Source: Chryseolinea serpens (GTDB taxonomy: Bacteria > Bacteroidota > Bacteroidia > Cytophagales > Cyclobacteriaceae). From it: a stretch of 64,000 nucleotides of DNA. Both the position numbers and the translations under genes were made by a program. Below, one piece after another: positions 6,601 to 64,000 of this stretch (positions are counted from its first letter, which is position 1; every line of letters begins with the position of its first letter). Below the pieces are notes generated by a model that was given only the letters and a program-made list of their open reading frames with translations, did no database searches and was not told where the DNA came from. Where the stretch lies: positions 868,001 to 932,000 of the forward strand of contig NZ_FQWQ01000001.1 of the NCBI RefSeq assembly GCF_900129725.1. The letters run 5' to 3'.

Positions 6601-6806
6601 CGCGCGACGCTGTTACGATTGAACACCTTCACGACGTAAAAAGCATCGACCTCTGGACGGTGACCGGAACAAAAATCGCCGCGGTTTATTCACACGATGA
6701 GGCGGAAGACAACTACCACGTGAGCTTCCATACGCACCCCGGAATGATCCTGCTCCGAATTGAAACTTCAACAGGCGTTTTCTATAAGAAGGTGTCTGTT
6801 GAGTAA
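3699..6806 (+). CDS. Large secreted glycoside-hydrolase-like protein with Ig-like and LamG domains and a T9SS sorting domain
   Basis: 1035 residues from the ATG at 3699; a TTG six bases earlier is in frame but less likely. A signal peptide ends near INAYAQ. Residues about 20-560 look like an alpha/alpha-barrel enzyme of a family I cannot name: Trp-rich repeats, a conserved-looking GGDDYAFVMNGFQQAA helix, and a short beta domain around 440-540. Two Ig/PKD-like domains follow (about 560-745, each with a YKWYVND or YAWTFTAG core). Then comes a LamG domain (about 750-945, DEIRIYNKALAPYEIETL) and a type IX secretion sorting domain (DFTLYPNPSRDAVTIEH). It is probably the surface or secreted enzyme acting on the glycan imported by the SusCD pair. 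That role rests on position, and no catalytic residues were identified. Confidence 0.8.
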   Translation: MIKACVRRIIWSGLLGITLINAYAQPGQIDIARVQQMPDLPSPYLMRDWKDVAKKYDEFIFSTGATGDFLPLISLKANGTNYPALQPILLDTYVGSPGNPAEAINIIPSIVGATLVGIDKSNQNGINWAIKAKDFFNKTNGQNVYLNGYATTSGSDWWYDVMPNVYFYQLYSQYPTLTDFNEQFTTIADRWLDAVKTMGGTTTPWTVPQMNYRGFNLLTMTPNGNGVIEPESAGTIAWLLYHAYGKTGNKKYLDGAQMALEFLSSLTTNPSYELQLPYGTFMAAKMNAETGTAYDVEKMLNWSFNRGPLRGWGTIVGTWNGADVSGLIGEANDGGDDYAFVMNGFQQAAALVPLVKYDKRFARAIAKWTLNLANASRLFYSQYLPQTSQDDFAWSSLHDPQSVIAYEALKENKDGKKLYATGDAKNGGWAETNLSLYSSSSVGYLAAVVDPTDVDGILLLDVNKTDFFGQNKFPSFLAYNPYAVPKAITLPLGAQTYDLYNAISETILKTGVTGNTSITLPAGEAMLLVYLPQNATTVAKNGKLYLGNDVVDYHHGYDFTGKLRIKSLATKDALVEFNQQVDVYSAAENATGAVTYKWYVNDALAESSSSEVFHWSVPAAEGTYKLLLEINSGTASAKDSISLTVVERIPGPPIIAGFTADKKWFTAGSESSIICQASNSHGGPLQYAWTFTAGALVNQNDSLIRWSVPQTEGLYTITCEVTNEDHLKATGQQQVLVKKLSDGTTAPFAYYPLDGDVKDYSGNDRDAHKEGTQQTADARGEPDRAYKFSSGSDIIYVDNSTSLNFQNEITLSFWVKLDAVTEESFILSHGSWEERWKVSVTPTKKLRWTVKSTSGTKDLDSSFPLELDHFYHFTVVYTPYSMELYSDGVLDTFSAASGLMSTTTKAITFGRKAVDEAAYFLKGTLDEIRIYNKALAPYEIETLKSLWNDVTAVPGETDRDFTLYPNPSRDAVTIEHLHDVKSIDLWTVTGTKIAAVYSHDEAEDNYHVSFHTHPGMILLRIETSTGVFYKKVSVE

Positions 6807-6910
6807 GCATGCACAAAACACCATCCCATCTCAAAGGAAGGCAAATTTCGGATCACGGATAACCTGCCCGATCAGAGGCCCTTATTTATTTGTAGAAATT
6901 CCTGCCCCAT

Positions 6911-6927
6911 TGAGGCATAATGCCTCA
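6911..6927. promoter_or_regulatory. Perfect short palindrome, possible operator
   Basis: TGAGGCAT and ATGCCTCA are exact inverted copies around one base. It lies about 100 bases upstream of the small gene at 7026, in a gap with no other gene. A protein-binding site is a guess from symmetry alone; no T run follows, so it is not a terminator. Confidence 0.3.
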
Positions 6928-7025
6928 GCTGTCATTGACCAATCTCTTCGCAAAGTGCTTTATTTTCGGTCGTACCGGGCGGCATGAATTTTCGGGTATG
7001 ACAGGCGTACCAAATAGTTACCATT

Positions 7026-7208
7026 ATGAAAACGTCGCAAAAAAATAAGCCCGCGCACAACGTGAATACGCCCACCCCACCCCAAGTGATGGATCCTACC
7101 CGTCATAGAAAACAGAATGAAAATCCGGACCGACGGAAGGATGCAAAGTCAAAAAAAATGCAAGAAGACCTCGATGACAGAAAGCTTGCGCCCCGGGAAG
7201 AACTGTAG
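7026..7208 (+). CDS. Small highly charged hypothetical protein (60 aa)
   Basis: 60 residues with no signal peptide or membrane segment. Lys, Arg, Asp and Glu dominate the second half (RKQNENPDRRKDAK), and the N-terminal half is rich in Pro, Asn and Thr, so the protein is probably disordered. The gene has a clear ATG. It converges with the MarR-GNAT gene, whose end is 17 bases away. Function unknown; it could be a nucleic-acid or ribosome-associated small basic protein, but nothing in the sequence proves that. Confidence 0.5.
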   Translation: MKTSQKNKPAHNVNTPTPPQVMDPTRHRKQNENPDRRKDAKSKKMQEDLDDRKLAPREEL

Positions 7209-7225
7209 CCCGCGAGGAAAAAGTG

Positions 7226-8179
7226 TTACAGATCCAAGACCATGATTTTCTCGGTGCGTTTGAGCACAGCCATCTGCTTGGGAGCCGCGCGATCCGTAAA
7301 GCCGAGTTTGTAATACAACGCATGCGCTTCCGGCATCGCCATCGTCGTCTGCAACCATAGCTGCGTGGCATAGTTCTCCTTACACCGCGATATGCAGCGT
7401 TCGATGAGCCGCGTGGCAATGCCGGCTTTGCGGATCGTGCGATCCACAAACAGTTTCGCAAACTCAAACGTGTTTTCGTCAAGTCTTTTCAGCGCGACCA
7501 CACCCACTACTTTTTTGTCATGCAACGCATAGAACACAAAACCGCCTGCATCCAGGTAGGCTTTGTCTGGATGCTGGAGAGTGATCTTGTCCTCTTCTTC
7601 CAGTTTTCCTTTTAGCACTTCCAGCAGCCAGGGCGCCGCCAGTTCGTAGAAGTATTTTTTGAGAGAGGGCCTATAGTCCACCACGCGAATATCCGGAAGC
7701 GTATGCAAGTGCTTTAATCTTTCATGGATGGGATTCGCCGACAGACCCGCTTCGATCCGGCTGAGAATGTTAGGGAAATCGGGGTGACCAGCATCCAGGA
7801 GATGTTTCAACGTCGCACCAAATGAACTCCAGATCTTTTGCAGTTTGGGAAGCAAGTTTTTCCCCTTCGCAGAGAGCTGGATTTGCTTGGATCGTTTATC
7901 CGTAGGATGCGACTTTACTTTGACAAGCTCCTGCTCCTCCAACTCGCGCACGATGTTTTTTACGGTGATATGAGAAACACCGATCTCCCCTGCAATCTCA
8001 AGCACCGTACGTGGCGCTTCGGATGTGGCCAGGATGTAGTAAACCGAAAACCAACTGGCCTTGAAATTCAAGTCGCTGTCACTATAGATCTTGTCGCCAT
8101 CAATATGCAGCTTCTCACTGATTCGCCGGAACCGCGTGGCACACGCGAGATACCCGAGTTGTGTGATCTTGTCGGTCAT
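7226..8179 (-). CDS. MarR-family regulator fused to a GNAT acetyltransferase
   Basis: 317 residues in two modules. Residues about 1-150 form a MarR winged helix: ISHITVKNIVRELEEQ-like recognition helix (VSHITVKNIVRELEE) and a wing with HPTDKRSKQIQLSAKGK. Residues about 165-317 are a GNAT domain with VVGVVALKRL, the acetyl-CoA loop region RKAGIATRLIERCI, and ALYYKLGFTD near the end. Such MarR-GNAT fusions are a recognised bacterial architecture, but their acetyl acceptors are mostly unknown. A 10-bp inverted repeat just upstream of the start codon (8186-8225) is a likely autoregulatory operator. The nearest neighbour on this strand is 330 bases away, so it is probably monocistronic. Confidence 0.9.
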   Translation of the reverse strand: MTDKITQLGYLACATRFRRISEKLHIDGDKIYSDSDLNFKASWFSVYYILATSEAPRTVLEIAGEIGVSHITVKNIVRELEEQELVKVKSHPTDKRSKQIQLSAKGKNLLPKLQKIWSSFGATLKHLLDAGHPDFPNILSRIEAGLSANPIHERLKHLHTLPDIRVVDYRPSLKKYFYELAAPWLLEVLKGKLEEEDKITLQHPDKAYLDAGGFVFYALHDKKVVGVVALKRLDENTFEFAKLFVDRTIRKAGIATRLIERCISRCKENYATQLWLQTTMAMPEAHALYYKLGFTDRAAPKQMAVLKRTEKIMVLDL

Positions 8180-8185
8180 ACTTAT

Positions 8186-8225
8186 TATGAAAGTAGTTTC
8201 ACAAAATTATAAAAGTACTTTCATA
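8186..8225. promoter_or_regulatory. Inverted-repeat operator in front of the MarR-GNAT gene
   Basis: TATGAAAGTA at 8186-8195 and its exact complement TACTTTCATA at 8216-8225 are separated by 20 AT-rich bases. The near arm is 7 bases from the start codon of the MarR-GNAT gene. Symmetry, position and a MarR dimer encoded next door make autorepression the natural reading. This is inference. Confidence 0.6.
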
Positions 8226-8241
8226 AATACGCCATCCCACA

Positions 8242-8388
8242 GAAAAAGTTTCACCAAAAAACCAAAAGGGCTCCCGACCGAAAGGTTCACCAAAAGCCCA
8301 AAAAAGCTCCCCGACTGAAAAGTTTTCATCAAAAGCCCAGGACTCCCCGACTGGAAAGTTTTCTCAAAGCCCAAAGGGCTTCCCTACC
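8242..8388. repeat. Four imperfect tandem copies of a 37-39 bp unit
   Basis: The gap between the MarR-GNAT gene and the alcohol dehydrogenase gene (8180-8510) contains four degenerate head-to-tail units starting at about 8242, 8281, 8318 and 8355. Each has the pattern AAAAGTTTCACCAAAAGCCC followed by GGCTCCCCGACTG or similar. The last copy is incomplete. The only other feature in this gap is the operator at 8186 and the hairpin at 8393. Confidence 0.6.
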
Positions 8389-8392
8389 ATAG

Positions 8393-8411
8393 CCCCCGGT
8401 GAAACCGGGGG
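8393..8411. repeat. GC-rich REP-like hairpin
   Basis: CCCCCGGT, loop GAA, ACCGGGGG: an 8-bp perfect GC stem directly after the tandem repeats. There is no T run, so a terminator is less likely than a dispersed palindromic (REP-type) element. Whether it recurs in the genome cannot be judged from one copy. Confidence 0.45.
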
Positions 8412-8510
8412 TACGGATCAAACAGCACAGACAACCCCAACGAGGTTCCCTATGCCCACACACCATTAAAAATCGGGTCAATGACCTTGCAACAAATCAA
8501 TCTCCACAGC

Positions 8511-9686
8511 CTAACTCAACTGCAAGACGTCCGTCATCTCCTCAGCGTTCAATACGATCGGATTGTTTTTGTTATCCGAAGCCGCCAGGATTTTAGGAAA
8601 GTCTTGAGGCGTAACGCCGCTTTGAGACAAGGCTGGGATGGCCATTTCAGCGCTCCAACTGGCCATAAGATCAAGAAGAAAGTCGATATAATAATCGCTC
8701 GTTTTTCCGGGAAGCGCCGAGAATAACTTACCAACTGTAGCATACTTTACCAGCGCCAGTTCATTGGCTTGCGTCGCGCGCAGTTTACGAACGGTCACCC
8801 GGTTTGCCGCCGTCATGAGTGCGCTGCAAATCACCCCGTGTGAGATCTTAAAGTATCCGCCTACCGCAGAAGCAAAGCCATGCACGAGACCGAGCCCCGC
8901 GTTGGCGAGCGTGATGCCCGAGAGATAGGCAGCCAACATCATATCGGCACGGGCTTCCAGATTTGTGCCTTCACGATAAGCCTTGGGCAAAGCACCGGAG
9001 ATGCGTTTTAATCCCTCCAGGGCCAGCGCATCGGTCACAGGATTAGCTGCCGTGGAGAGATAGGATTCCAGCAATTGCGTGAACGCATCCATGCCGCTGG
9101 CCGCCGTGATGGCGGGAGGACAATGAACGGTGAGCGCCGGATCGAGTATCGCCACTTTGGGTACGAACTTGTTATGCCGCAGTGACTTTTTAAAACCCCG
9201 CGCTCCCGTCTCCGACAACACCGCGTTCTTTGTTGCTTCACTCCCCGTTCCTGCAGTGGTTGGAACGGCCACAAAGGGAAGTGTGGTGCCGGGGTGGGAT
9301 TTTGTTCCTACACCTTCCAAATAGGGAGCGACGGGCTCATCCAAGACCAGCATCGCCGCAATGGCTTTGCCGGCATCCAGCACACTGCCACCGCCGATGG
9401 CCAGGACCGCGTGTGGTCTAAAGTCTGAAAATTTTGTCACCGCGCTGTCGATCACCGCCGGCGAAGGTTCACCCGGGATCTTACAGATCTCGACGTTGAA
9501 ATGCTCCTGTCGCAGTTGATCCAGCAAGGTCTGGCCTGGCGTGGACGATAGAAAGGAATGCGCGCCCGTAACCAGCACGATCTTCTTTCCATAGGTTTCC
9601 AGCACGCCCGGGGCAACCGAGATCATGCCGGCGCCAAAATGTACATGGGGTGTGGCGGCTAATCCGAATGCTTTCATGACTTCCAT
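8511..9686 (-). CDS. Iron-containing alcohol dehydrogenase family protein
   Basis: 391 residues from the ATG at 9686. The start is chosen because that ATG overlaps the TAA of the upstream gene (TAATG), which indicates translational coupling. An NAD(P)-binding N-domain carries GGGSVLDAGKA (about 98-108). The C-domain has the Fe/Zn ligand region GMDAFTQLLESY and GLVHGFASAVGGYFKISHG with its histidines, plus the PTTAGTGSE signature. Family members reduce aldehydes or ketones, and one subgroup is maleylacetate reductase. The exact substrate is not readable. Coupling to a YgiN-type monooxygenase suggests processing of a small quinone, aromatic or reactive carbonyl compound, which is inference. Confidence 0.9.
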   Translation of the reverse strand: MEVMKAFGLAATPHVHFGAGMISVAPGVLETYGKKIVLVTGAHSFLSSTPGQTLLDQLRQEHFNVEICKIPGEPSPAVIDSAVTKFSDFRPHAVLAIGGGSVLDAGKAIAAMLVLDEPVAPYLEGVGTKSHPGTTLPFVAVPTTAGTGSEATKNAVLSETGARGFKKSLRHNKFVPKVAILDPALTVHCPPAITAASGMDAFTQLLESYLSTAANPVTDALALEGLKRISGALPKAYREGTNLEARADMMLAAYLSGITLANAGLGLVHGFASAVGGYFKISHGVICSALMTAANRVTVRKLRATQANELALVKYATVGKLFSALPGKTSDYYIDFLLDLMASWSAEMAIPALSQSGVTPQDFPKILAASDNKNNPIVLNAEEMTDVLQLS

Positions 9687-9985
9687 TATGCGGAGACTGG
9701 GTAGAGCAAGTTGTGCTTCACGCCTTCGCGTGGTTTGGCCATCCAATCGGCTACAGTGTCGCGCCATTTCTGGTAGTGGGCCGTCTCTTTGTGGGCAGCG
9801 GCAGCTTGCTCGGTGGCGTAGGCTTCGTAGAATACGAATTTGTTCGGATCCTGGGCGTCTTGTAAAATATCGAAGCGTAGGTTGCCGGGCTCCTGGATGG
9901 ATCGTTCGTGGTTTTGGCGCGTGGCTTCGATGAAGGTTTGGCGGAATTCGGGTTTTACCTGGACGTGGATGATGGTGGCGACCAT
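9686..9985 (-). CDS. Antibiotic biosynthesis monooxygenase (ABM/YgiN-like) domain protein
   Basis: 99 residues, the usual size of a stand-alone ABM-fold protein. It begins MVATIIHVQVKPEF and has the family pattern RSIQEPGNLRFDILQDAQDP followed by KFVFYEAYATEQAAAAHKE and HYQKWRD. ABM proteins are cofactor-independent dimeric ferredoxin-fold oxygenases acting on quinols, polyketide-like aromatics or haem. A longer in-frame start upstream exists but adds residues unlike the family. Its stop codon shares one base with the start of the alcohol dehydrogenase gene, so both are one translational unit. Confidence 0.9.
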   Translation of the reverse strand: MVATIIHVQVKPEFRQTFIEATRQNHERSIQEPGNLRFDILQDAQDPNKFVFYEAYATEQAAAAHKETAHYQKWRDTVADWMAKPREGVKHNLLYPVSA

Positions 9986-10094
9986 TGCTTTTTTTCTGCT
10001 AACGTACGAGGAAAAAGGCTTAACCGCAAAGACCCGCCTTCGCTGAAGCTTCAGCGGGCAAGCGCAAAGTTGGCGCAAAAAAATTCAGATACCC

Positions 10095-11192
10095 TTAGTT
10101 GTCGATCGTTTGGGGGGTGGGAGTTTCGTGCCTTTGTTTGGCGGCCTGCCAGTCTTCGCGGATGAGGAAATGGATGTCTTCCCGTTCGAAGGTTTGGAGC
10201 AGCTTTAGGTTGATGTATTGTTGGATGTCCATGTAACGCAGGTAGTCGGCCACGGTGACGTAGTAGATCACTTCGAACACAACGCCATAGTCCGTGAGTC
10301 GTGCCAGGTGGGCACGGTCAAAACGAACATCCTTGGCGCTTTCGATAATGGACTTGATGAGGGTGGGGATTTTTTCGAGCTGGCTGGTCGTGGTGTCGTA
10401 TACCACTGTGACGGTGAATTGCACGCGGCGGTTTTCCTGGCGTTTGTAGTTGTGCACGCGCGACTTGGTGAGGTCACTGTTAGAGATGATGATCTGTTCG
10501 CCGGTAAGGCTGCGAAGACGCGTGGTCTTCACACCGATGTATTCGATGGTGCCGTTCTTGTCGTCCACGTTGATGGCGTCGCCTACTTCGAAGGGCTTGT
10601 CGAAAAAGATCACAAAATAGTTGAACAGGTCGCCAATGATGTTTTGCGCGGCCAGGGCCACGGCAATGCCGCCAATGCCCACACCGGTGAGAATGGTGGA
10701 AACGTCATAGCCCAGGTTTTGGATGAGGAACACCCCACCCAGGATCCACACCACCAGGTTGATGATGATCATCAACCCTCCTACCTGCAACACTTTCGTC
10801 TCCCCGTTTTCCTGTTTTCGGATATGGTTGATAAGAATGATCCTGATGGTGGTGGAGATAAACCGCAGCACAAAAACCATGATGACCACACCCGTGGCGA
10901 CCTCTACTACGCGGCTCGCTTTTACGGACAACTCCAGGCTGTTGATGCCCCAGTAAATGACCAGGAAGCTGAGGATCGGCAACACAAATTTTTCAATGCC
11001 GGCCACCACCTGGTCGTCGGTCTTGGATGGGCTCTTCGCCACCATCTGCTCCACCTTGGTCATGATGACCCGCTTGAAGATGCGAATGAGCAGCAAGCCT
11101 AAAACAATGATCCCGGCGGCAATGAGATAGGTCTGTACCGTATTCTTGCCTTCTCTCGAAAGTATTTCCTCGAATGATCCCATGCATTTCAT
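10095..11192 (-). CDS. Small-conductance mechanosensitive channel (MscS family)
   Basis: 365 residues. Four hydrophobic segments lie at about 20-40, 70-90, 95-120 and 135-160. They are followed by the Gly/Ala-rich pore helix GVGIGGIAVALAAQNIIGDL and the FVIFFDKPFEVGDAINV transition into the cytoplasmic beta domain, which is diagnostic of MscS. The C-domain contains IEYIGVKTTRLRSLTGEQI and ends in a charged tail. It releases osmolytes at the inner membrane on hypo-osmotic shock. ATGs at 11192 and 11183 are both possible starts. It is apparently monocistronic; 220 bases separate it from the next gene upstream. Confidence 0.94.
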   Translation of the reverse strand: MKCMGSFEEILSREGKNTVQTYLIAAGIIVLGLLLIRIFKRVIMTKVEQMVAKSPSKTDDQVVAGIEKFVLPILSFLVIYWGINSLELSVKASRVVEVATGVVIMVFVLRFISTTIRIILINHIRKQENGETKVLQVGGLMIIINLVVWILGGVFLIQNLGYDVSTILTGVGIGGIAVALAAQNIIGDLFNYFVIFFDKPFEVGDAINVDDKNGTIEYIGVKTTRLRSLTGEQIIISNSDLTKSRVHNYKRQENRRVQFTVTVVYDTTTSQLEKIPTLIKSIIESAKDVRFDRAHLARLTDYGVVFEVIYYVTVADYLRYMDIQQYINLKLLQTFEREDIHFLIREDWQAAKQRHETPTPQTIDN

Positions 11193-11413
11193 TTTGCATT
11201 CTTCAGAAGGAAAATATTGTGCCGGAGATGTTGTCTTCCATCACAAAAATGCAAAGCGCCCGGAAAGCGTCGTAGCTCTCGTTCGATTCCATCCCCGGGA
11301 AGGATGTTTTTTTATTTCACAGATGGTGGGAAAAATTTCCTCAGTTTGAAACCATCACCATGGTCCGGAGTGTGGAGAAATGTCGACAGGATCCTTTCAA
11401 AAAATTCTACCTC

Positions 11414-54294: not shown

Positions 54295-57168
54295 ATGACG
54301 CGAATCTCTACATTCCGACTTTTAACATTTCTCTTCTTCCTAGGCTACGCCGGTCACGCAAACGCACAAATGCGCACCGTGTCCGGAAGGCTGCTCGATT
54401 CGGGTGACAATCCACTGCCCGGTGTCAATGTCGTCATCAAAGGAACCGATACGGGCACCACAACCGACGCCGAAGGATACTACACGATCGATGTACCGGT
54501 CGGCGCCACCCTGTTGTTTTCATTTGTCGGCATGCGAACCAGCGAAGTGGTCGTTACGGCCGACAATCTCAGCACCACCTCACCGCGCATTCCCCCGCAA
54601 AGGAAAACAACAGGCCCATCCTTTTCCCTTAAAGACTCCACCCAGACCCAGGAACCCGGCGTGGCCGTGCTCACCGATGAAACTCCATCCTATTCCAACC
54701 GTGGGTCTATCCCACCCGACCAGATCAAATCCATCCGGCTGACCGGAAAGAAATATTCGATCGCAACCTTCGAGCCACAAGGCACCAACGATGTAGCCAG
54801 CGGACGTTTTACGTTGTCCGTTGGCCTGGAGCGCGTGAACAAGCTCCCTTCCCTGCAAACCACCTTTGCACAGGGCCGGCCCGTAAATGGACAAACGACC
54901 TGGAGAGGTCCCGACCAGCAAGAGATCTTTAGCTGGGGACCATTGGTGCGAACCCTGGAGTTTGATGGCAGCAGCTACCCCTTCGATCGCCAGGGTCGTT
55001 TGGTCGCCGCCGGAACGGGGAATGGAAATGCCGCACAGGCCTATGATCCTTCCCGTATTTTTCGCACGGGCATGACCACGTCGGCCGAGCTTTTGCTGAT
55101 GATCCCCGCATTAAAAAAAGGGATGCTTTCGCTGGACCTGGAGAACCGGACGCGATCGGGTGTGATCCCAAACACCGACTACAAACGTCAAAACATCTCG
55201 GTGGCGCTAAAACGTTTTCGCCTCACTTCGCACACCACGATCGACGGGATGCTCACCTATAATCATTCTGCCGGCACGCTGATGAATCGCGGCGCCAACC
55301 TGGCCACCATCGTAGGTTCGATCTATCGCACACCGGCAACGTTCGACAACACTAATGGACTTGGCCCATCAGCATTACACGCCCCCGAAGCTTACAAGCT
55401 TGCCGACGGAAGCCCCCGCACACATGCACCCGGCGCAGTCGACAATCCATATGGACTCCTCAGCACCTTGCCCGATCACGAACAACAAAACCGCTTCTTC
55501 TCCACCCTAACCCTGCAAAGCACCGTCATCCGCAAGGTCAAGCTCACGGGCAATGCCAGTTTTGAAAAGCAAGGGAACACGATCGTGCACGGATTTCCGG
55601 TCGACTATGCTGGCTACCCCTCCGGAAGACTTACCCACCGTGACGATGATGAGACCGTGGCCAAAGGCTTCGTGTCCCCGGAATACACGAGTCCTAACGA
55701 AGCGTTCAAGTTCTCGGCTTCGTATCAGCTCCACTATACGCAACGCACGCTCCACCGCGAAGACGGATTCGACTTCAACACTCCGGACCTGGACTTTGAA
55801 GAGGCCACCCGTAGCGCGCGGCTTCAACGATCGCTCTCGCGGACGGTGCATGAAACTTCGGTGGGTGGCCAATATCGCTTTGAAGACTTTTTGCTGATCA
55901 AGCTTTCGGAAAGGAACTACTTCTCCTCTACGGTCAACTCCAAACTTTACACCAATCTATTTCCGATGGCAGCGGTAAGTGCAAATCTGGCTTCGCGGTT
56001 GTATATGGACCCCATCGATAAGCTCGAGCCCTATTTCTCCGTTTCGCGCAGCTTGCATGAAGCGCCCTTGGTGTACAACAATTGGTCTTATCTGTCCACG
56101 CGACAGTCGCTGCAAACTTACAACCGGTTTTTCGAGTCCACCGAACTCTTCTTCCGGTCGGGGCTACTCCCGGAGACCGATCGAAAGCTGGAGACAGGGC
56201 TTTCGCTGATCATGTTCAATAACTTTAATTTTGACTTTGCCTATTTCAATAATCTCACCAGCAACTTCATCGCACCCCAGTGGGGACAGGGACAATTTTC
56301 GCTTCAGAATGTAGCCTCCATTCGAAACACGGGTACAACGGCATCCCTAAGCTACAACAGGTCGGTGTATTCGTCAGACAAACTGGGATGGGGTATCAAT
56401 CTGCGATGGAGCTCGTATCGCACCGTAGCCGAGACCTTGAATACTCCGGATGCATTTGTTCCGCTGGCGGGCTTTGAATCTGTGGCTTCCGTGCTGGCGG
56501 CGGGCAAACCGGTTGGAGCGATCTATGGAACTACTTATTTGCGAAACGAAAACGGGCAACGGGTTATCGATAGCGATGGCTATCCCGTGATCGACCCTTC
56601 CCTCAAAATGATCGGCAATCCTATTCCCGACTGGGTGTCGAGCATGGGTGCACACGTGAACTGGCAGCGCATCACCGTTTCCATTTTGGTGGATTATAAA
56701 AAAGGCGGCGACGCGTGGAACGGTACCGCCCGCATGCTGGACTACCTGGGACGATCGGCCACCACCGCCGACCAGCGAAACATCAGCCAGTTTGTCTTCG
56801 AAGGCGTGGATGAGAATGGTCACACCAACACAAAACCCGTCGATTTTGCTAACCCGAATCAACCCGTGGAATCCAATCGCTGGGTGCGTCAGGGTTGGGC
56901 TGGCGTGGGCGAAGACTACATTCAAAAGACCTCCTGGCTTCGGTTGAATGAAGTAACCCTATCCTATTCCACTTTACGCTCGCGGACGCGCAGGTTCGTC
57001 AAGGAAATGAACTTTGCGCTGACGGCAAGAAACCTATTGTTGATCACCCCCTATAAAGGCGTTGATCCGTCGTCGACATTATTCGGCTATAGTACCGGCG
57101 CTGGCCTCGACCTTTTCAACACCCCGGCCACCCGCAGCTTCAGTGCTTTGATCACCTTAAAATTCTAA
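54295..57168 (+). CDS. SusC-like outer-membrane barrel lacking a recognisable plug domain
   Basis: 957 residues. Signal peptide to HANAQ; carboxypeptidase-regulatory-like domain about 26-90 (SGRLLDSGDNPLPGVNVVIK, then LLFSFVGMRTSEV). A normal SusC then has a TonB box and a plug of about 120 residues. Here residues 91-170 are a Pro/Thr-rich linker with no VVVVGYG, no DGVP-type segment and no NGAI/VLI-type end. One weak plug-like trace, IPPDQIKSIRLTG, remains. The barrel starts about 171 (RFTLSVGLERVNKLPSLQT, SWGPLVRTLEFDG) and ends in LITLKF. It has no SusD partner. The next gene, 3 bases on, encodes an A2M-like protein that carries a plug. Confidence 0.88.
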   Translation: MTRISTFRLLTFLFFLGYAGHANAQMRTVSGRLLDSGDNPLPGVNVVIKGTDTGTTTDAEGYYTIDVPVGATLLFSFVGMRTSEVVVTADNLSTTSPRIPPQRKTTGPSFSLKDSTQTQEPGVAVLTDETPSYSNRGSIPPDQIKSIRLTGKKYSIATFEPQGTNDVASGRFTLSVGLERVNKLPSLQTTFAQGRPVNGQTTWRGPDQQEIFSWGPLVRTLEFDGSSYPFDRQGRLVAAGTGNGNAAQAYDPSRIFRTGMTTSAELLLMIPALKKGMLSLDLENRTRSGVIPNTDYKRQNISVALKRFRLTSHTTIDGMLTYNHSAGTLMNRGANLATIVGSIYRTPATFDNTNGLGPSALHAPEAYKLADGSPRTHAPGAVDNPYGLLSTLPDHEQQNRFFSTLTLQSTVIRKVKLTGNASFEKQGNTIVHGFPVDYAGYPSGRLTHRDDDETVAKGFVSPEYTSPNEAFKFSASYQLHYTQRTLHREDGFDFNTPDLDFEEATRSARLQRSLSRTVHETSVGGQYRFEDFLLIKLSERNYFSSTVNSKLYTNLFPMAAVSANLASRLYMDPIDKLEPYFSVSRSLHEAPLVYNNWSYLSTRQSLQTYNRFFESTELFFRSGLLPETDRKLETGLSLIMFNNFNFDFAYFNNLTSNFIAPQWGQGQFSLQNVASIRNTGTTASLSYNRSVYSSDKLGWGINLRWSSYRTVAETLNTPDAFVPLAGFESVASVLAAGKPVGAIYGTTYLRNENGQRVIDSDGYPVIDPSLKMIGNPIPDWVSSMGAHVNWQRITVSILVDYKKGGDAWNGTARMLDYLGRSATTADQRNISQFVFEGVDENGHTNTKPVDFANPNQPVESNRWVRQGWAGVGEDYIQKTSWLRLNEVTLSYSTLRSRTRRFVKEMNFALTARNLLLITPYKGVDPSSTLFGYSTGAGLDLFNTPATRSFSALITLKF

Positions 57169-57171
57169 CCT

Positions 57172-60100
57172 ATGAAACGTCTTCTTTATATCGCCTTCAC
57201 CCTGCTCGCCGGCATTATCCTACAGGCTTCCGACAGCGTTCCGTTTCTCGAAAAATTGAAAGCCACCCTGCAGCGCTTCAACGAACGCTATCCGGACGAA
57301 AAGGTGTATCTCCAATTTGACAAACCCTTCTATAAGCCGGGGGAAGACATTTGGTTCAATGCCTTTGTGCTGGAAGCCCGCCATAACACGCCAACCAAGA
57401 TCAGCGATGTGGTGTATGTCGAACTGATCGATCCCCGCGGCAATGTGGCTTCGCGCCTGGATTTGTTTGTGAAGGACGGGACCACCCGGGGTGATTTCAA
57501 ACTCACCGACAACGCATCCGGCGGACTGTATACCATCAAAGCCTATACGCAGTGGATGAAAAATGGTGGCGCTGAAAATGTCTTTCGCAAAAAGATCCAG
57601 GTCCAAACCGTGATCACCCCACGCCTGCTGCTAAAACTCGATTTCGAAAAAGAAGCCTATGGCCCCGGTGATGTGGTGAAGGCAAAGCTCACTGCAAAAA
57701 ATCTTAAGAACGAAACTGTCGCCGCAACCCTAAAGTACACCGTCGCGCTTTCCGGCGAGCAAGTCTTTTCTTCGGAATTGAGGGCCAGCGAACAAGGTAC
57801 GGCTACCCTTACCTTCACCCTGCCCACAGACCTAAAAACTTCCGACGGCTTGCTGCAAGCGATCGTCGCCGACAACGGTGTGGAAGAGTCCATTTCACGG
57901 GCCGTTCCCATCGTGCTGAATCACATCACACTGCAATTCTTCCCGGAAGGTGGTGATCTTCTCGATGGCATAACCAACACTGTGGCGTTTAAAGCCGTGA
58001 ACGAATTTGGAAAAGGTGCCGATGTCGCCGGGGAGATCCGCGATGAGCACGACCGGTTTGTCTGCAGTTTTGAGAGCTATCACATGGGCATGGGGGCGTT
58101 TACCTTTCATCCGAAGTCCGGAAGGCGATATCACGCGGTACTGAAAACGCCGGCGGGTATTGTCGCAACAACACCGCTTCCAACAGCGCGGCCGGATGGT
58201 TTCGCACTGCATAAGGGTGCTCAGGATCAATCGGAGATCGCCTTTGAGATCACGGCTCCTCTCGCCACCACGGGCTACCTGGTGGGACAACTACAAGGCG
58301 AGATCTACCACGCCGAAAAGATCTCGTTTCAAAAAGGGAGCAACGCCATCCGGGTGAACACAAAATTGTTTCCTGCCGGCGTGGCCGTGTTCACGGTGTT
58401 TGATGCGCAGGGATTGGAGCAATGTGAGCGCCTGGCGTTCGTCAATCCCGACCGGCAATTGTCCTTGAAGCTGACGCCCGACAAGAAACAATATCAACCC
58501 CGCGAAAAAGTTTCCCTCCACATCGAAACGTCCGACGACAAAGGCCATCCTATTCCGGCAAAACTGTCGCTGGCCGTGGCCGATGATCAACTCATCTCAC
58601 TGGCCAACGATAAGCAGGACAATATGCTCTCCTGGTTCCTGCTCTCCTCGGAGGTGAAAGGCGAAATTCAGGAGCCATCTTTCTATTTCAACAAAGAAGA
58701 ACCAAAAGCCTCTCAGGCGTTGGACTACCTGCTGATGACACAAGGCTGGCGAAGATTCCACTGGCACGATCTGGCTACTGAAAAGACGCTTGCCTATACA
58801 CCCGAAAAGGAAGGCCTCCTCTTTGGGCAAGTAGCCGATGAAAAGGGCCGGGGCATCGACGATGAAGTCACCCTGATAGAACTCAACAACAAACGACGCA
58901 TCATCAAGGTCCGGGCCAAGGCTGACGGCAATTTCTTATTCAAAAATACCGATGCTACCACGCCGATGCTCTTGCTCACCAGCAGCACCAGCCACATCAT
59001 CTTGCAGAAAGAAATTACAGGTGCCCGTGCATCTTACCAGCTCATCGGCAGCGATTCTGTTCTATACGAACCTACACGAAGCGAGACGGTGCAAGATAAT
59101 CGTATGCCCGCCGTAGTACCGTCGCTTCAGGTTGGAAAAGGAATTGGGTTGGATCTTCGTATGCAGGAAGACGTGCAATCGCTGAATGAAGTGGTGGTGG
59201 TGGGATATGCTGCTTCCGAGCGAAGGGATCTTACCGGGTTCGTTTCCGTGATGCGGACAAACGACTGGGTTCCTTTCGTTCCGGCCGTAAACCTTGAAGC
59301 AGCACTGCTGTGCCGGGCTCCGGGTATTGCGATCACTCACCAAAATGGAAATACAGGGGCTTCGTCCAACATGCGATTGAGAGGCGTCGGTTCCTATTTG
59401 GCTGGGAACGAGCCCCTCTTTGTGATCGACGGCGTGCCGGTGTCCAACAGTCTCAACAGCAATTTCTCAACCAGTGGCCTGGTGAGTCCCGACGATGTGG
59501 AGAGCATCACCGTGCTCCTTTCGCCAGAGGCTTCTGCGCTTTATGGCAGCCGGGCATCGAACGGCGCGATCGTGATCAACACGCGCTCGCGGCTCTACTT
59601 CGGGAGTTATTCGCAGCGGAAACGCCGCGCGCGGTTTTCGCACGTGATGGTGCAACCCCGGGCCTTTACGGCCACGCGCGAATTCTATGCCCCCACCTAT
59701 TCCAAGAGGGACCAGATTGAGGAGCGCCAGGATTTTCGCACCACCGTATATTGGAACCCTTCCATCGTAACGGACGAAAAAGGCGAGGCCACCGTTTCGT
59801 TTTACAACACCGATGCGGTGAGCAGTTTCCGCATCACGGCCGAAGGAATTTCCGGTCGCGGCTTATTGGGGCGAAAAGAAGAAACCTATTTCACCCAATT
59901 ACCCTTTTCACTCGATGCCAAGTTGCCGGAATTTATCGGGTATGAGGACACGCTCAGAATTCAAGTGCGCATCAAAAATACCACCCCTAAAATATTGGCC
60001 GGAGAGCTAACCCTCGACCTACCCGATGAATTGATGACGTCAACACGAATGCTGCCCGTGAACGTTGGGGCCTCCACCACAGAGACGGTAGTCGTGACCC

Positions 60101-61785
60101 TTCTTCCAAAAGCCAAAACCGGGCGCTACCCCATCGCGATCCGCCTCACCAGCAACGGCAGACACGACGAGATCCGGCAGATCGTGCAGGTTCACCCGGT
60201 AGGTTTTCCGGTACAGCTTGACGTTGGTGCGAAGACATTGGATACGCTGGTCCATTTTTCTGTTCACGATATAGAACAAGGGTCACTCCAGGCAAAATTC
60301 GCCGCTTTCCCCGACGTGATCAGCGATCTCTTTCACGGCGCCGAATCCATTTTGATGGAACCGCACGGTTGCTTTGAGCAGGTGTCGTCGAGCACCTTTC
60401 CCAATATCCTTGCCCTGCAGTTTATGCGGGAGTCGGGGACGATCGATCCGGCAGTGAACACGCGCGCGTTGGATCTGATAAAAGACGGATACAAACAACT
60501 CGCGGCCTACGAAATTGCCGGCGGCGGCTTTGAGTGGTTTGGCCACCCACCGGCACACGAGGCGCTATCGGCATATGGCCTTGTTGAATTTTATGAGATG
60601 AAAAAAGTGTACCCCCAAGTGGACGACGCGATGCTGAAACGCACCCGCGACTGGCTGTTGTCCCGCCGCGATAGCCACGGCGGGTTCAAACAAAACCGGG
60701 GCAAGTATGGATTTTCCGCCGCTCCTGCGGCAGTGAACAATGCCTACATCATGTATGCGCTCGCCCTTACCGGCTCTACCGACATTCAGAAGGAATATGA
60801 AACCGCGCGCGACGAGGCTTGGAAAAGTAAAGATCCCTATCGCATGGCGCTCATCGCCAATGCAGCCTTCACGCTGGGAGCGTTGGATGATTATCACCGC
60901 TTTGTGAACTACTTCCTGGAAGTGGCGCATACACGCGGTCTAGCTTCTCTTTCTCCAAACTGTTCCATTACGTATAGCTGGGGAGAATCACTCTTACAGG
61001 AGACCCTGGGTTTCTGGGTGCAGGCGCTGGCCCGGGAAGGCTATGCGCACCATAGTATGATGGCAGCCTGTATTCAAAACATTCTTCAACATCGCAGCTA
61101 CGGCGGCTTCGGCTCAACCCAAGCCACCACCGTATGCCTACAGGCCCTCACCGCGTATGCCCGCGTAATGCGCACCCCACAAGAAGGCGGTGAGATCCAA
61201 CTGACGGTAAACAACCAACCCGGCGGCCTCCTGACCTATCAAAAGGGCACACAGGAGAAACTCACGCTTAATCATTTCGCGGATAACCTGACCGGCGATG
61301 GCCCACAATCCATCCGCGTTGCCTTTGCCAAGACCAAACACCCAATCCCGTTTCACCTTCAATTACAATGGAGCTCGAAAACGCCCATGTCCAGCGACCT
61401 GTGCAAAATAAGCATCAAGACCTCCCTGCTTCAAACGGCCGTGCGCGTGAATGAGACCGTGCGAATGAATGTGACGCTAACCAACAAAACACACGACGGC
61501 CTTCCCATGACCATGGCGGTGGTGGGCATCCCCGGCGGCCTCAGTGCACAACCCTGGCAGTTGAAAGCACTACAAGAAAAAGGTGTGTTTGACTTTTATG
61601 AGATCATCGGAGACCGCATCGCATTTTACTACCGGGAACTGGGGCCATCGGCTGTTCACTCCATTGCACTTGATCTGAAAGCCGAAGTGGCAGGACACTA
61701 CACCGGCGCCGCCAACTCAGCGTATCTCTACTACAATAATGAATGGAAAGACTGGAGCAAAGGATTGACGATTGCTATACGCTGA
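57172..61785 (+). CDS. Alpha-2-macroglobulin-like protein with an internal TonB-receptor plug domain and a thioester
   Basis: 1537 residues. Signal peptide (ILQASDS). MG2 domain about 27-120 (KVYLQFDKPFYKPGEDIWF). More MG-like sandwiches to about 540. A carboxypeptidase-regulatory-like unit about 545-605 (LLFGQVADEKGRGID). A full TonB-receptor plug about 665-806: LNEVVVVGYAASERRDLTG, NLEAALLCRAPGIAITHQ, MRLRGVGSYLAGNEPLFVID, VSPDDVESITVLLSPEAS, SRASNGAIVINTRSR. The A2M core resumes with VYWNPSIVTDEKGEATVSF, the GCFEQ thioester motif (C1067, Q1070) and an alpha/alpha thioester domain to about 1330. It is probably periplasmic or outer-membrane-associated and cotranscribed with the plugless barrel. 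Function is inferred. Confidence 0.92.
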   Translation: MKRLLYIAFTLLAGIILQASDSVPFLEKLKATLQRFNERYPDEKVYLQFDKPFYKPGEDIWFNAFVLEARHNTPTKISDVVYVELIDPRGNVASRLDLFVKDGTTRGDFKLTDNASGGLYTIKAYTQWMKNGGAENVFRKKIQVQTVITPRLLLKLDFEKEAYGPGDVVKAKLTAKNLKNETVAATLKYTVALSGEQVFSSELRASEQGTATLTFTLPTDLKTSDGLLQAIVADNGVEESISRAVPIVLNHITLQFFPEGGDLLDGITNTVAFKAVNEFGKGADVAGEIRDEHDRFVCSFESYHMGMGAFTFHPKSGRRYHAVLKTPAGIVATTPLPTARPDGFALHKGAQDQSEIAFEITAPLATTGYLVGQLQGEIYHAEKISFQKGSNAIRVNTKLFPAGVAVFTVFDAQGLEQCERLAFVNPDRQLSLKLTPDKKQYQPREKVSLHIETSDDKGHPIPAKLSLAVADDQLISLANDKQDNMLSWFLLSSEVKGEIQEPSFYFNKEEPKASQALDYLLMTQGWRRFHWHDLATEKTLAYTPEKEGLLFGQVADEKGRGIDDEVTLIELNNKRRIIKVRAKADGNFLFKNTDATTPMLLLTSSTSHIILQKEITGARASYQLIGSDSVLYEPTRSETVQDNRMPAVVPSLQVGKGIGLDLRMQEDVQSLNEVVVVGYAASERRDLTGFVSVMRTNDWVPFVPAVNLEAALLCRAPGIAITHQNGNTGASSNMRLRGVGSYLAGNEPLFVIDGVPVSNSLNSNFSTSGLVSPDDVESITVLLSPEASALYGSRASNGAIVINTRSRLYFGSYSQRKRRARFSHVMVQPRAFTATREFYAPTYSKRDQIEERQDFRTTVYWNPSIVTDEKGEATVSFYNTDAVSSFRITAEGISGRGLLGRKEETYFTQLPFSLDAKLPEFIGYEDTLRIQVRIKNTTPKILAGELTLDLPDELMTSTRMLPVNVGASTTETVVVTLLPKAKTGRYPIAIRLTSNGRHDEIRQIVQVHPVGFPVQLDVGAKTLDTLVHFSVHDIEQGSLQAKFAAFPDVISDLFHGAESILMEPHGCFEQVSSSTFPNILALQFMRESGTIDPAVNTRALDLIKDGYKQLAAYEIAGGGFEWFGHPPAHEALSAYGLVEFYEMKKVYPQVDDAMLKRTRDWLLSRRDSHGGFKQNRGKYGFSAAPAAVNNAYIMYALALTGSTDIQKEYETARDEAWKSKDPYRMALIANAAFTLGALDDYHRFVNYFLEVAHTRGLASLSPNCSITYSWGESLLQETLGFWVQALAREGYAHHSMMAACIQNILQHRSYGGFGSTQATTVCLQALTAYARVMRTPQEGGEIQLTVNNQPGGLLTYQKGTQEKLTLNHFADNLTGDGPQSIRVAFAKTKHPIPFHLQLQWSSKTPMSSDLCKISIKTSLLQTAVRVNETVRMNVTLTNKTHDGLPMTMAVVGIPGGLSAQPWQLKALQEKGVFDFYEIIGDRIAFYYRELGPSAVHSIALDLKAEVAGHYTGAANSAYLYYNNEWKDWSKGLTIAIR

Positions 61786-61911: not shown

Positions 61912-63165
61912 CTATAGCGCCACAGCCTGCCCGTTGCGAGTGATGGCGACATCAATCGGTGCAGCTTCTTTCAAACTGGTGGTGGGGGTTATTTGTAAGA
62001 AGTAGGCATCCTTGGTGTTCTCCTCGAAGCTGATGGCGGCACCGCGATCGGTGTCGCGCACCTCGGCACGAACCTCCTTGCCATCGGCAGTCAGGACTTG
62101 CACTTTATAATTCTTACTATTCACCGACAGGACGATCTCCACTTGTCGTCGCGGGTCGATGTCGAGCGGACAGAAGCAGCATTCAGGAATGCGGAAGATT
62201 TTTGCTTTGTAAACGTAGAGGCGTTTTCGAATCTTCGTAAGCGCGCAAGCCAGGCTATTCGGATCGCGTTCGCAGGCCGTGCATTTGGGTTGAAGGATGC
62301 CATTGAGGGCGTCGTTGCACACAGCGCAAAGCTCAAAATTCAGAGCCCTCATCAGGCAATTGGCTTGCGGACGATAGATGCCCGTTGGCGAATAGCCACC
62401 ACCCGCCCATGCGCCCACTACACCCGGAGGAGTGTCGACCGTAGTCGGAAGCGGTGTAGTGGCAGCCACAAAACTTCCCCATTTGAGGGTGGCGCGATTG
62501 GTATTGATGGTGAGGTTCACCTGCCAGGGCTCCGGACCAGCATAGGCCGGTTCGACACGACCGTCGCAGAAGTAACAAGTGTATTCATCGGCGAGATGAC
62601 CAACGAAGTGACCCAGTTCGTGCACGATCACCTCCTGCATGCTGGTGTTTAGCGAAGTGTATACAATGTCTCCGGCGGCACCACCGTATTGCGCGTCGTT
62701 CACCAGCACATAGATGGCATCAAAGGCAGGCGCGTAGTTAGCGGCTTCCGTAACGCGTGCCGGTGTGGTGGAGTAAATAACGCGCTCGGGCGCACCCACA
62801 TTGTCGCCAAACGTGCAGTTGAGTTCTGTGTTCTTGGACACGCCGGTGAGGGGATGATCGATGCCCGCCTCGGCCGAAATAACATTGACACGCCACACGT
62901 TAAAAGAACAAATTTGGGTTGAATACGGCACTTTGTGCCGAAGCGCATCCACCGCCGAAAGAACGGCATTGTTAAACTTATCCTGGTCGGCTGCCGACGA
63001 GGTGAAGCCGTCGCCCACAAATACGATATCATATTTCCGCGTGGTGGAACCGTTCACCAACACCGCCGTAGCATGCGTGCCGTCGGCGTTGGTCTGTACA
63101 TTGACCGTGGCGTATGCTTGGACCATGCACAGCAAGCTGACGCAAAGAAGAAAGAGGGTTTTCAT
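61912..63165 (-). CDS. Secreted M64-type zinc metallopeptidase
   Basis: 417 residues. Signal peptide to QAYAT. The catalytic domain carries VIVHELGHFVGHLADEY, the HExxH-like zinc site of family M64 (IgA-peptidase-like), preceded by YDIVFVGDGFTSSAADQDKF. A Cys-rich region follows at about 270-320 (FELCAVCNDAL, PKCTACERDP, PECCFCPLD) with several CxxC-type pairs that may form disulfides or a structural zinc site. A C-terminal beta domain of about 85 residues ends the chain. It presumably degrades extracellular protein. The TIG lipoprotein gene, 35 bases upstream, is likely cotranscribed. Confidence 0.9.
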   Translation of the reverse strand: MKTLFLLCVSLLCMVQAYATVNVQTNADGTHATAVLVNGSTTRKYDIVFVGDGFTSSAADQDKFNNAVLSAVDALRHKVPYSTQICSFNVWRVNVISAEAGIDHPLTGVSKNTELNCTFGDNVGAPERVIYSTTPARVTEAANYAPAFDAIYVLVNDAQYGGAAGDIVYTSLNTSMQEVIVHELGHFVGHLADEYTCYFCDGRVEPAYAGPEPWQVNLTINTNRATLKWGSFVAATTPLPTTVDTPPGVVGAWAGGGYSPTGIYRPQANCLMRALNFELCAVCNDALNGILQPKCTACERDPNSLACALTKIRKRLYVYKAKIFRIPECCFCPLDIDPRRQVEIVLSVNSKNYKVQVLTADGKEVRAEVRDTDRGAAISFEENTKDAYFLQITPTTSLKEAAPIDVAITRNGQAVAL

Positions 63166-63200
63166 AAGATTCTGCTTTTTAGGTGATTGAAAATAACGTG

Positions 63201-63863
63201 CTACTTAGCGGGAATGGCCAGCTCGGTCATCAGTGTGGCCTTGCCCTTGGTAGCCGGGGTGATCGCCGACACACGTACCTTGGCCAGATCGGTGAGCACA
63301 GGAATGTTGACGCTGAACGGCACTTCATCTTTGCGTTCCACCATACTGAAGCCCTTGCCGTCGGGCGACGGCACCTCCAGCACGCCGGGATGATCCATAT
63401 AGACAAGGGCAATAACCTCACCCTTCGTGTTGAGAAATTCCACCAACAACTTGTTCATCGTGTGGCTCTTGTCGCGAACAAAATCTTCGCGGCTTGGCTG
63501 TCGCTCCGTATACGTCACGGCGTTGCCTTTCAACGTAAACCACAAACGCTCCGCATCCGGTGCCTGCACCTCGAAGGTGGCGCTGACGGACTTGCCCCCG
63601 ACGTCTACGCTGATCGCTGTGGATTGTGGCGCTACCGCCGGAACGATAATCGAGACGATGGTGTCGGAAGCGCTTATCACAACAGCACTTTCCCCGGCAA
63701 TTTTTACGGTGGGCGTTTTCGGAAAGACACCATTTGCCACGCGCAACGTAACCATGTCGCCTGGACTGCTACTGGGGGTATCCAGGGTGATGGTTGGAGA
63801 CTTGTTGCATGCCACAGCCAGTATGGCCAGCATCAACAGGAAGAGGATGGATTTGGGTTTCAT
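63201..63863 (-). CDS. IPT/TIG-like lipoprotein
   Basis: 220 residues from the ATG at 63863; an upstream GTG is in frame but lacks the signal. The lipobox is at LAVAC. An IPT/TIG-like Ig domain is visible at about 30-105 (ITLDTPSSSPGDMVTLRVAN, then VKIAGESAVVISASDTIVS). A second beta domain with GEVIALVYMDHPGVLEVP follows to the end. Such lipoproteins are surface or periplasmic scaffold or binding proteins. It is cotranscribed with the M64 peptidase downstream, possibly as its anchor or partner. The remaining 137 bases of the window show nothing. Confidence 0.8.
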   Translation of the reverse strand: MKPKSILFLLMLAILAVACNKSPTITLDTPSSSPGDMVTLRVANGVFPKTPTVKIAGESAVVISASDTIVSIIVPAVAPQSTAISVDVGGKSVSATFEVQAPDAERLWFTLKGNAVTYTERQPSREDFVRDKSHTMNKLLVEFLNTKGEVIALVYMDHPGVLEVPSPDGKGFSMVERKDEVPFSVNIPVLTDLAKVRVSAITPATKGKATLMTELAIPAK

Positions 63864-64000
63864 ATCGAGAGAGGGTTTATAAGTATTCAACACATCACTA
63901 CCCGGTACGGGAATACTTTCGATACGATTCCAAGCATAGCCGGAAGACGGGAGCCAAAACTTTTTCGGGGTTCCTAGAGTCTGACGATACGAATATAGAG

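Follow-up and report, generated by a model that had tools for sequence, protein, structure and literature searches.

Can the pore and the plug of a TonB-dependent receptor be made by two separate genes, and what would a plug do inside a macroglobulin? Such receptors are commonly taken to hold barrel and plug in one chain. The question is raised by a stretch of 64,000 nucleotides of the 8.36 Mb genome of Chryseolinea serpens (contig NZ_FQWQ01000001.1, positions 868,001 to 932,000; hereafter the window), in which a gene for a SusC-type barrel protein lacking a plug domain is directly followed by a gene for an alpha-2-macroglobulin (A2M)-like protein that carries one. This pairing is real and conserved over Bacteroidota. 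The plug occupies the A2M bait-region site, a feature that an earlier, preliminary description of this DNA had missed. Both proteins come from known families, and neither a description of the pair nor a precedent for the combination was found in the open-access literature, a scope that leaves subscription papers and preprints aside. On balance, though narrowly, we read the pair as one TonB-dependent receptor that is split over two chains and linked with a protease trap.

The barrel gene and the plug-bearing A2M gene

The two genes and the parts of the first are as follows (aa, amino acids).

54295..57168, plus strand: gene for a 957-aa SusC-type barrel protein that lacks a plug domain (open reading frame, Pfam, TIGR04056, AlphaFold, Foldseek)
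54379..54585, plus strand: N-terminal extension of the barrel protein, CarbopepD_reg_2, aa 29-97 (Pfam, E 1.6e-16)
54586..54798, plus strand: linker replacing the plug, aa about 98-168 (AlphaFold and alignment of orthologs)
54799..57165, plus strand: barrel domain, aa about 169-957 (TIGR04056, AlphaFold model)
57172..61785, plus strand: A2M-like gene with plug, 1537 aa, in the same frame as the barrel gene and separated from its stop codon by 3 bp

The preliminary description had called open reading frames (ORFs) of 957 and 1537 aa three bases apart, and the coordinates agree. It had described the first product as a SusC that keeps its regulatory domain and has lost its plug, which is borne out: CarbopepD_reg_2 was found, and Pfam Plug gave no match to the 957-aa protein even at E-values up to 1, nor to any of the 53 plugless barrels scanned (Pfam covered the barrels of 53, and the A2Ms of 32, of the 66 pairs with an intact barrel). 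The NCBIfam profile TIGR04056 (SusC) matches the barrel over profile positions 275-981 only, with 211 bits, under the full-length cut-off of 368. In the AlphaFold model, built from 12 sequences with a mean predicted local distance difference test (pLDDT) of 71.5, the regulatory domain is folded, aa 91-138 are disordered (pLDDT under 50), aa 144-158 form a hairpin and strands begin at about aa 169; no real plug is present at aa 91-170. Across 12 aligned orthologs the linker has the majority sequence GVAVLTDxTPSY. The top PDB matches of the model in Foldseek are SusC proteins, the best being BT2264 (5fq6, E 1.5e-40, template modelling score 0.60). By Pfam, TIGR04056, Foldseek and the model, the protein belongs to the SusC barrel family and has no plug in the same chain. 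A search of its own genome with the barrel domain shows no second short barrel: the 13 other matches sit in frames of at least 1048 aa, and all 56 SusC matches scored (among 140 candidates) span the profile from its start, plug included.

The second protein is laid out as follows.

57301..57582, plus strand: MG2 domain, aa 44-137 (Pfam, E 3.1e-20)
58339..58596, plus strand: A2M_BRD match, aa 390-475 (Pfam, E 7.2e-6)
58972..59163, plus strand: hypervariable linker 5' of the plug, aa 601-664, within the bait-region site (conservation 0.35; pLDDT under 50 from aa 614)
59185..59205, plus strand: TonB-box-like motif NEVVVVG, aa 672-678 (pattern search)
59224..59568, plus strand: SusC-type plug domain, aa 685-799 (Pfam Plug, E 3.7e-14)
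59590..59673, plus strand: hypervariable linker 3' of the plug, aa 807-834 (conservation 0.31)
59674..59742, plus strand: conserved post-bait segment, aa 835-857 (conservation 0.56 in A2Ms with plug, 0.61 in those without)
59743..60012, plus strand: A2M domain PF00207, aa 858-947 (Pfam, E 9.7e-10)
60304..61161, plus strand: thioester domain TED, aa about 1045-1330 (Pfam)
60367..60381, plus strand: GCFEQ thioester motif, aa 1066-1070 (sequence)

Macroglobulin domains, PF00207 and TED, together with a CxEQ thioester, make this protein an A2M, and the thioester had rightly been called intact. MG2, TED and A2M domains occur in 32/32 pair A2Ms, as does Pfam Plug, and all 67 A2M ORFs as called contain GCFEQ and lack a lipobox. 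Their signal peptides resemble type I by eye, and Por_Secre_tail is not among the families listed for the 32 A2Ms. In a single-sequence PDB search, the thioester region (60304-61161) found its best matches in eukaryotic CD109, TEP1 and A2M, with no E. coli A2M among them; to our knowledge, these eukaryotic proteins have neither a plug nor an outer-membrane partner.

The plug reported inside the A2M was found again, both by Pfam and by TIGR04056, positions 67-204 of which match aa 660-805 (E 9.9e-40); in a single-sequence PDB search it also matches the SusC protein BT1763 (E 3.6e-21). The TonB-box region, given as VVVVGYG, actually reads NEVVVVGYA, and the motif NEVVVVG resembles the Ton box of BT1763, DEVVVTG (PMC7782687). 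A loose TonB-box pattern is present in 70/70 A2M plugs. A TonB box ahead of a plug is found on the A2M partner, where TonB binding is putative. As for the regulatory-like domain described in the same protein, Pfam is silent on the window A2M but finds CarboxypepD_reg in 18 of the 32 A2Ms of the family.

Pairing across Bacteroidota

Searches were led from both genes. From the A2M, 118 genomes including that of the window were covered, with at most four candidates per genome scored, and this gave at least 20 further loci matching the thioester half, 20 of which were read with their flanks. The match spans the plug region in 13 of these 20, and 12 of the 13 have the barrel directly upstream; the seven whose match does not span it have no barrel in the fetched DNA. 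The exception (L042; G116, A2M at 6249-11313) has only a 129-aa regulatory-domain ORF in the barrel's place, and the body of its plug has decayed, scoring 17 bits where the median is 137 and giving no Pfam Plug, with a TonB-box-like string kept. A second search, with the C-terminal half of the A2M as query against 296 genomes sampled evenly from the class, gave 48 more loci: by in-house hidden Markov models (HMMs), one (L190) has both plug and barrel and 47 have neither. In all 68 A2M-led loci, the barrel accompanies 13/13 A2Ms with an intact SusC-type plug and was unseen at the other 55, among which the upstream DNA is too short for a verdict in L044, L045 and L164 and no longer than about 1.1 kb in L169 and L192. 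Pfam covered the bait site in 10 of these 55 segments; in the rest, the lack of a plug is by the in-house HMM.

From the barrel, the best 80 of 572 relatives gave 77 loci, comprising 62 plugless barrels and 15 ordinary SusCs. One plugless barrel (L133) lies where its contig ends; the other 61 adjoin an A2M, which carries a plug by the in-house HMM in 60 cases and in the last (L134) a truncated plug that Pfam nevertheless sees. All the ordinary SusCs contain a plug, and no A2M was seen in the DNA fetched around them. With L071, L074, L077 and L078 counted once with L032, L043, L039 and L036, whose contigs they share by length, an A2M gene lies directly downstream at 71/71 distinct plugless-barrel loci (70 with a plug by HMM, one truncated), and the gap between the genes is from -30 to 50 bp in 59 of the 67 pairs measured. 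Six named orders contain the pair: Cytophagales, Chitinophagales, Flavobacteriales, Bacteroidales, Marinilabiliales and Saprospirales. The match between plugless barrel and plug-bearing A2M that had been singled out in the window is strongly supported from both directions.

A profile seeded with five genes that are SusD-like by Pfam detected a SusD-like ORF beside none of the 71 plugless barrels, whereas all 15 ordinary SusC loci of the same search have one; the plugless barrel therefore has a different partner. The only SusD-like match in the window (993-2480) is 52 kb off and adjoins another SusC. In two trees, which took 35 of 69 and 18 of 69 plugless rows, the plugless barrels form one side of a single branch with a support of 100 in the approximate likelihood-ratio test SH-aLRT. 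Among the near relatives with a plug are SusC genes that have SusD after them (L208, L209) and one without a SusD-like gene after it (L210). Perhaps, then, the plug was lost a single time from an ordinary SusC line when an adjacent A2M carried one, a direction that we infer on trees with no fixed root. The plug tree (24 of 70 A2M plugs, 24 of 27 from SusC, 18 of 21 from short macroglobulins, 6 of 20 from vWA proteins, plus that of L206) groups A2M plugs with SusC plugs and sets the short-macroglobulin plugs apart with a support of 100, its inner branches being mostly weak. A common origin for all macroglobulin plugs is not favoured, as those of the short macroglobulins branch separately.

A conserved third gene was sought around the pairs. 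The large clusters of neighbour genes hardly reach beyond Weeksellaceae or Flavobacterium, and a few small clusters of 4-5 loci extend over families or orders.

The plug at the bait-region site

In the E. coli A2M (ECAM/YfhM), the disordered bait spans residues 923-942, and more of the bait domain reaches to 963 (PMC4498604). A profile of aa 806-1030 of the window A2M, which begins behind the plug, aligns to this protein just past the bait region, the alignment starting at chain position 936-953 according to the construct; because it begins at the A2M domain rather than over the bait, and the offset to the published numbering was estimated, the bait-site match carries an uncertainty of about 20 residues. 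In the window A2M, a plug between variable, low-confidence linkers stands before PF00207, and a disordered bait region there is putative. The 47 plugless A2M relatives have 102-179 variable residues at this site, with a conservation of 0.34 as against 0.53-0.68 elsewhere. In the 67 plug-bearing A2Ms, the plug (0.53) is flanked by variable linkers (0.35 and 0.31).

Other modules were seen at the same site. A TonB C-terminal domain (TonB_C, PF03544) is found there in the A2Ms of L044, L045, L175, L191 and L193; L192:2361-7364 has a plug together with TonB_C, the plug being seen by Pfam and missed by the SusC-type HMM; and L170:5777-10555 has a divergent plug, likewise visible to Pfam and missed by that HMM. 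No SusC-type barrel was seen near L192, with only about 1 kb upstream, or L170. Because TonB_C, plug with TonB_C, and divergent plug share one site, the sequences suggest that these A2Ms acquire TonB-facing modules there. The idea that TonB_C-bearing A2Ms partner a plugged relative of the barrel was dropped, because the relative in question proved, at L208 and L209, to be a SusC accompanied by a SusD.

Readings of the pair

In the reading that we favour, the exported A2M would fit its plug into the barrel from the periplasm and thereby shut the pore, and such docking seems to us quite probable. Both ends of a TonB-receptor plug lie on the periplasmic side, and a plug in mid-chain could seat for this reason. 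Once seated, it would keep the macroglobulin ring and the thioester domain at the inner mouth of the pore. TonB, whose action on the A2M plug is moderately likely, would grip the TonB box and extract the whole non-covalent plug. Extraction of a whole plug by TonB has been proposed for BT1763, which loses its plug entire from a closed barrel in vitro (PMC7782687). A protease entering by the pore, or attacking the plug or its linkers, would cleave the bait segment; that the plug serves as a functional bait is close to an even call, leaning slightly against. Cleavage would release the conserved post-bait segment, activate the thioester and capture the intruder. In ECAM, once the bait has been cut, a released segment pushes the thioester domain away from its guard (PMC4498604), and by analogy aa 835-857, conserved and rightly placed, could act as the freed segment. 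If the stopper is the trap's sensing segment, its removal or cleavage would arm the trap at that very pore. The fullest form of this proposal, in which the plug became bait and made a guarded gate coupling TonB-driven channel opening to the capture of entrants, is tentative and open to considerable doubt.

Several observations weigh against this reading. The plug is weakly modelled, with a pLDDT under 50 over much of aa 614-745 of the window A2M, and the first 50 PDB matches of this model in Foldseek are all of A2M/complement type, with no SusC; the assignment of the plug therefore rests on sequence. The loss of the plug by BT1763 in vitro is considered likely non-physiological by its authors (PMC7782687). 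In a mirror-tree test on 63 of 67 pairs (L093, L117, L126 and L134 left out), plug and barrel distance matrices show no link beyond ancestry (partial r 0.03), and the barrel follows the N-terminal macroglobulin array of the A2M (partial r 0.62). Of 66 barrels, 6 also have a TonB-box-like string within the regulatory domain or at its margin, that of the window included (EVVVTA at aa 84). Most of the A2M branch has no plug, and protease trapping by the A2M is itself a putative function.

Plugs also occur in macroglobulins without such a neighbour. Among 30 loci of short macroglobulin proteins (mostly 800-950 aa; L051-L070 and L196-L205), which have no thioester domain, 24 have a plug match near the C-terminus (one of only 18 bits; two loci are cut by contig ends), and 0/24 have a plugless barrel in the fetched DNA. 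The genome of the window also encodes a 2258-aa A2M (L206:6953-13729, contig C7) with a regulatory domain and, just before its A2M domain, a plug of 116 bits by the in-house HMM that Pfam does not list; no plugless barrel adjoins it, and the SusC nearby has its own plug. The pairing proposed in the preliminary description thus stands for full-length thioester A2Ms, and does not extend to the short proteins or to the 2258-aa A2M. Such plugs may therefore have another use, and finding one in a macroglobulin is not enough to infer a plugless partner.

Among other explanations, an importer plugged in trans comes first: the pair would be a TonB-dependent transporter of proteins or peptides whose periplasmic A2M binds cargo through its thioester for nutrition. 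The barrel belongs to a family of nutrient transporters, the related RagAB imports peptides (as structure titles state) and the TonB-box-like motif is conserved. We consider it unlikely, given the lack of a SusD-like gene at any of the 71 pairs, the absence of nutrient-uptake genes from the identified neighbour clusters (a minority of the clusters), and a covalent A2M chemistry that would suit trapping more than release.

The covariation result and the plugs just described bear on a further explanation, in which the A2M plug is not seated here and is a general module for docking to TonB or the outer membrane, the barrel being closed by its own loops, its linker or another partner. Plugs in 24 short macroglobulins, in vWA/YfbK proteins and, by HMM, in the 2258-aa A2M agree with it, as do TonB_C at the same site of other A2Ms and the missing plug-barrel covariation. 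Against it stand the constancy of the pairing from both search directions, the decay of the plug where the barrel is missing, and the branching of short-macroglobulin plugs away from those of SusC and A2M, which together leave it rather improbable.

The preliminary description had also raised a surface defence or capture device; in such a device the A2M would lie outside the cell, anchored from above by its plug. CD109 and TEP1, which the thioester region resembles, act outside cells; this reading is nonetheless disfavoured, and now very unlikely, by signal peptides of type I by eye, the absence of a lipobox and of Por_Secre_tail, and a plug topology with both termini periplasmic. Coincidental adjacency, gene decay or misassembly, to which a few loci with broken genes (L121, L126, L132) or with the A2M in two pieces (L037, L043) might point, is rejected as negligible, the ORFs being mostly intact and the gene order being kept at 71 loci over six named orders. 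In L037:6643-11346, the A2M is split by one in-frame stop, just before the plug, into ORFs of 653 and 906 aa, which may be a real fission or an error.

The split receptor with its trap can be set against three known bacterial systems. First, the SusC/RagA transporters (BT2264, BT1763, RagA) share the barrel fold and the N-terminal regulatory domain, and the A2M plug is of SusC type with a Ton-box-like motif; the window pair differs in splitting plug and barrel over two polypeptides and in having no adjoining SusD-like gene. Second, ECAM and the Salmonella A2M have in common with the window A2M the macroglobulin domains, a bait site before PF00207 and the thioester domain, and their periplasmic protease-trap logic (PMC4498604) would be shared as well. 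ECAM is, however, a lipoprotein anchored in the inner membrane, whereas the window A2M has no lipobox and has a plug at the bait site. Third, Oar of Myxococcus also has plug, barrel and N-terminal extension, but with plug and barrel in one chain; as a TonB-dependent transporter required to secrete the protease PopC, it indicates that such receptors can handle proteins, and the paper on it defines the class by barrel plus plug (PMC6434023). A natural split found phylum-wide makes it possible to ask, in a natural setting, if the entire plug exits the pore in the course of transport, a debated point, and suggests the inner mouth of an outer-membrane pore as the workplace of these Bacteroidota A2Ms.

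In Weeksellaceae, the in-house HMM finds a plug-region match in an upstream gene, at a distance of up to about 2.2 kb, at 23/23 loci (22 named plus L095), the match in L094 being weak and without Pfam Plug. The three long upstream proteins scanned (L104, L097 and L124) have vWA domains and a plug by Pfam. Such plug and vWA/YfbK proteins were seen in Chryseobacterium at L104:5567-7930, L097:5362-7941, L124:3428-5884 and others, and the protein at L104 has a type IX secretion tail (Por_Secre_tail) at its end. A neighbour gene recurs at 24 loci, including L086; the single member scanned with Pfam encodes a sigma factor of extracytoplasmic function (ECF) type. At a given locus, the two plugs of the operon resemble each other slightly more (0.403) than plugs of different loci do (0.371), with 2 of 10,000 permutations as high, a similarity inflated because the loci are kin. 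In this family, the second plug-bearing vWA protein near the ECF sigma gene may report the state of the pore to transcription.

A promoter and terminator scan found sites rarer than in shuffled sequence. Downstream of the window pair, convergent neighbours on the minus strand (61912-63893) comprise an M64 peptidase-like gene and a gene for a TIG-domain protein.

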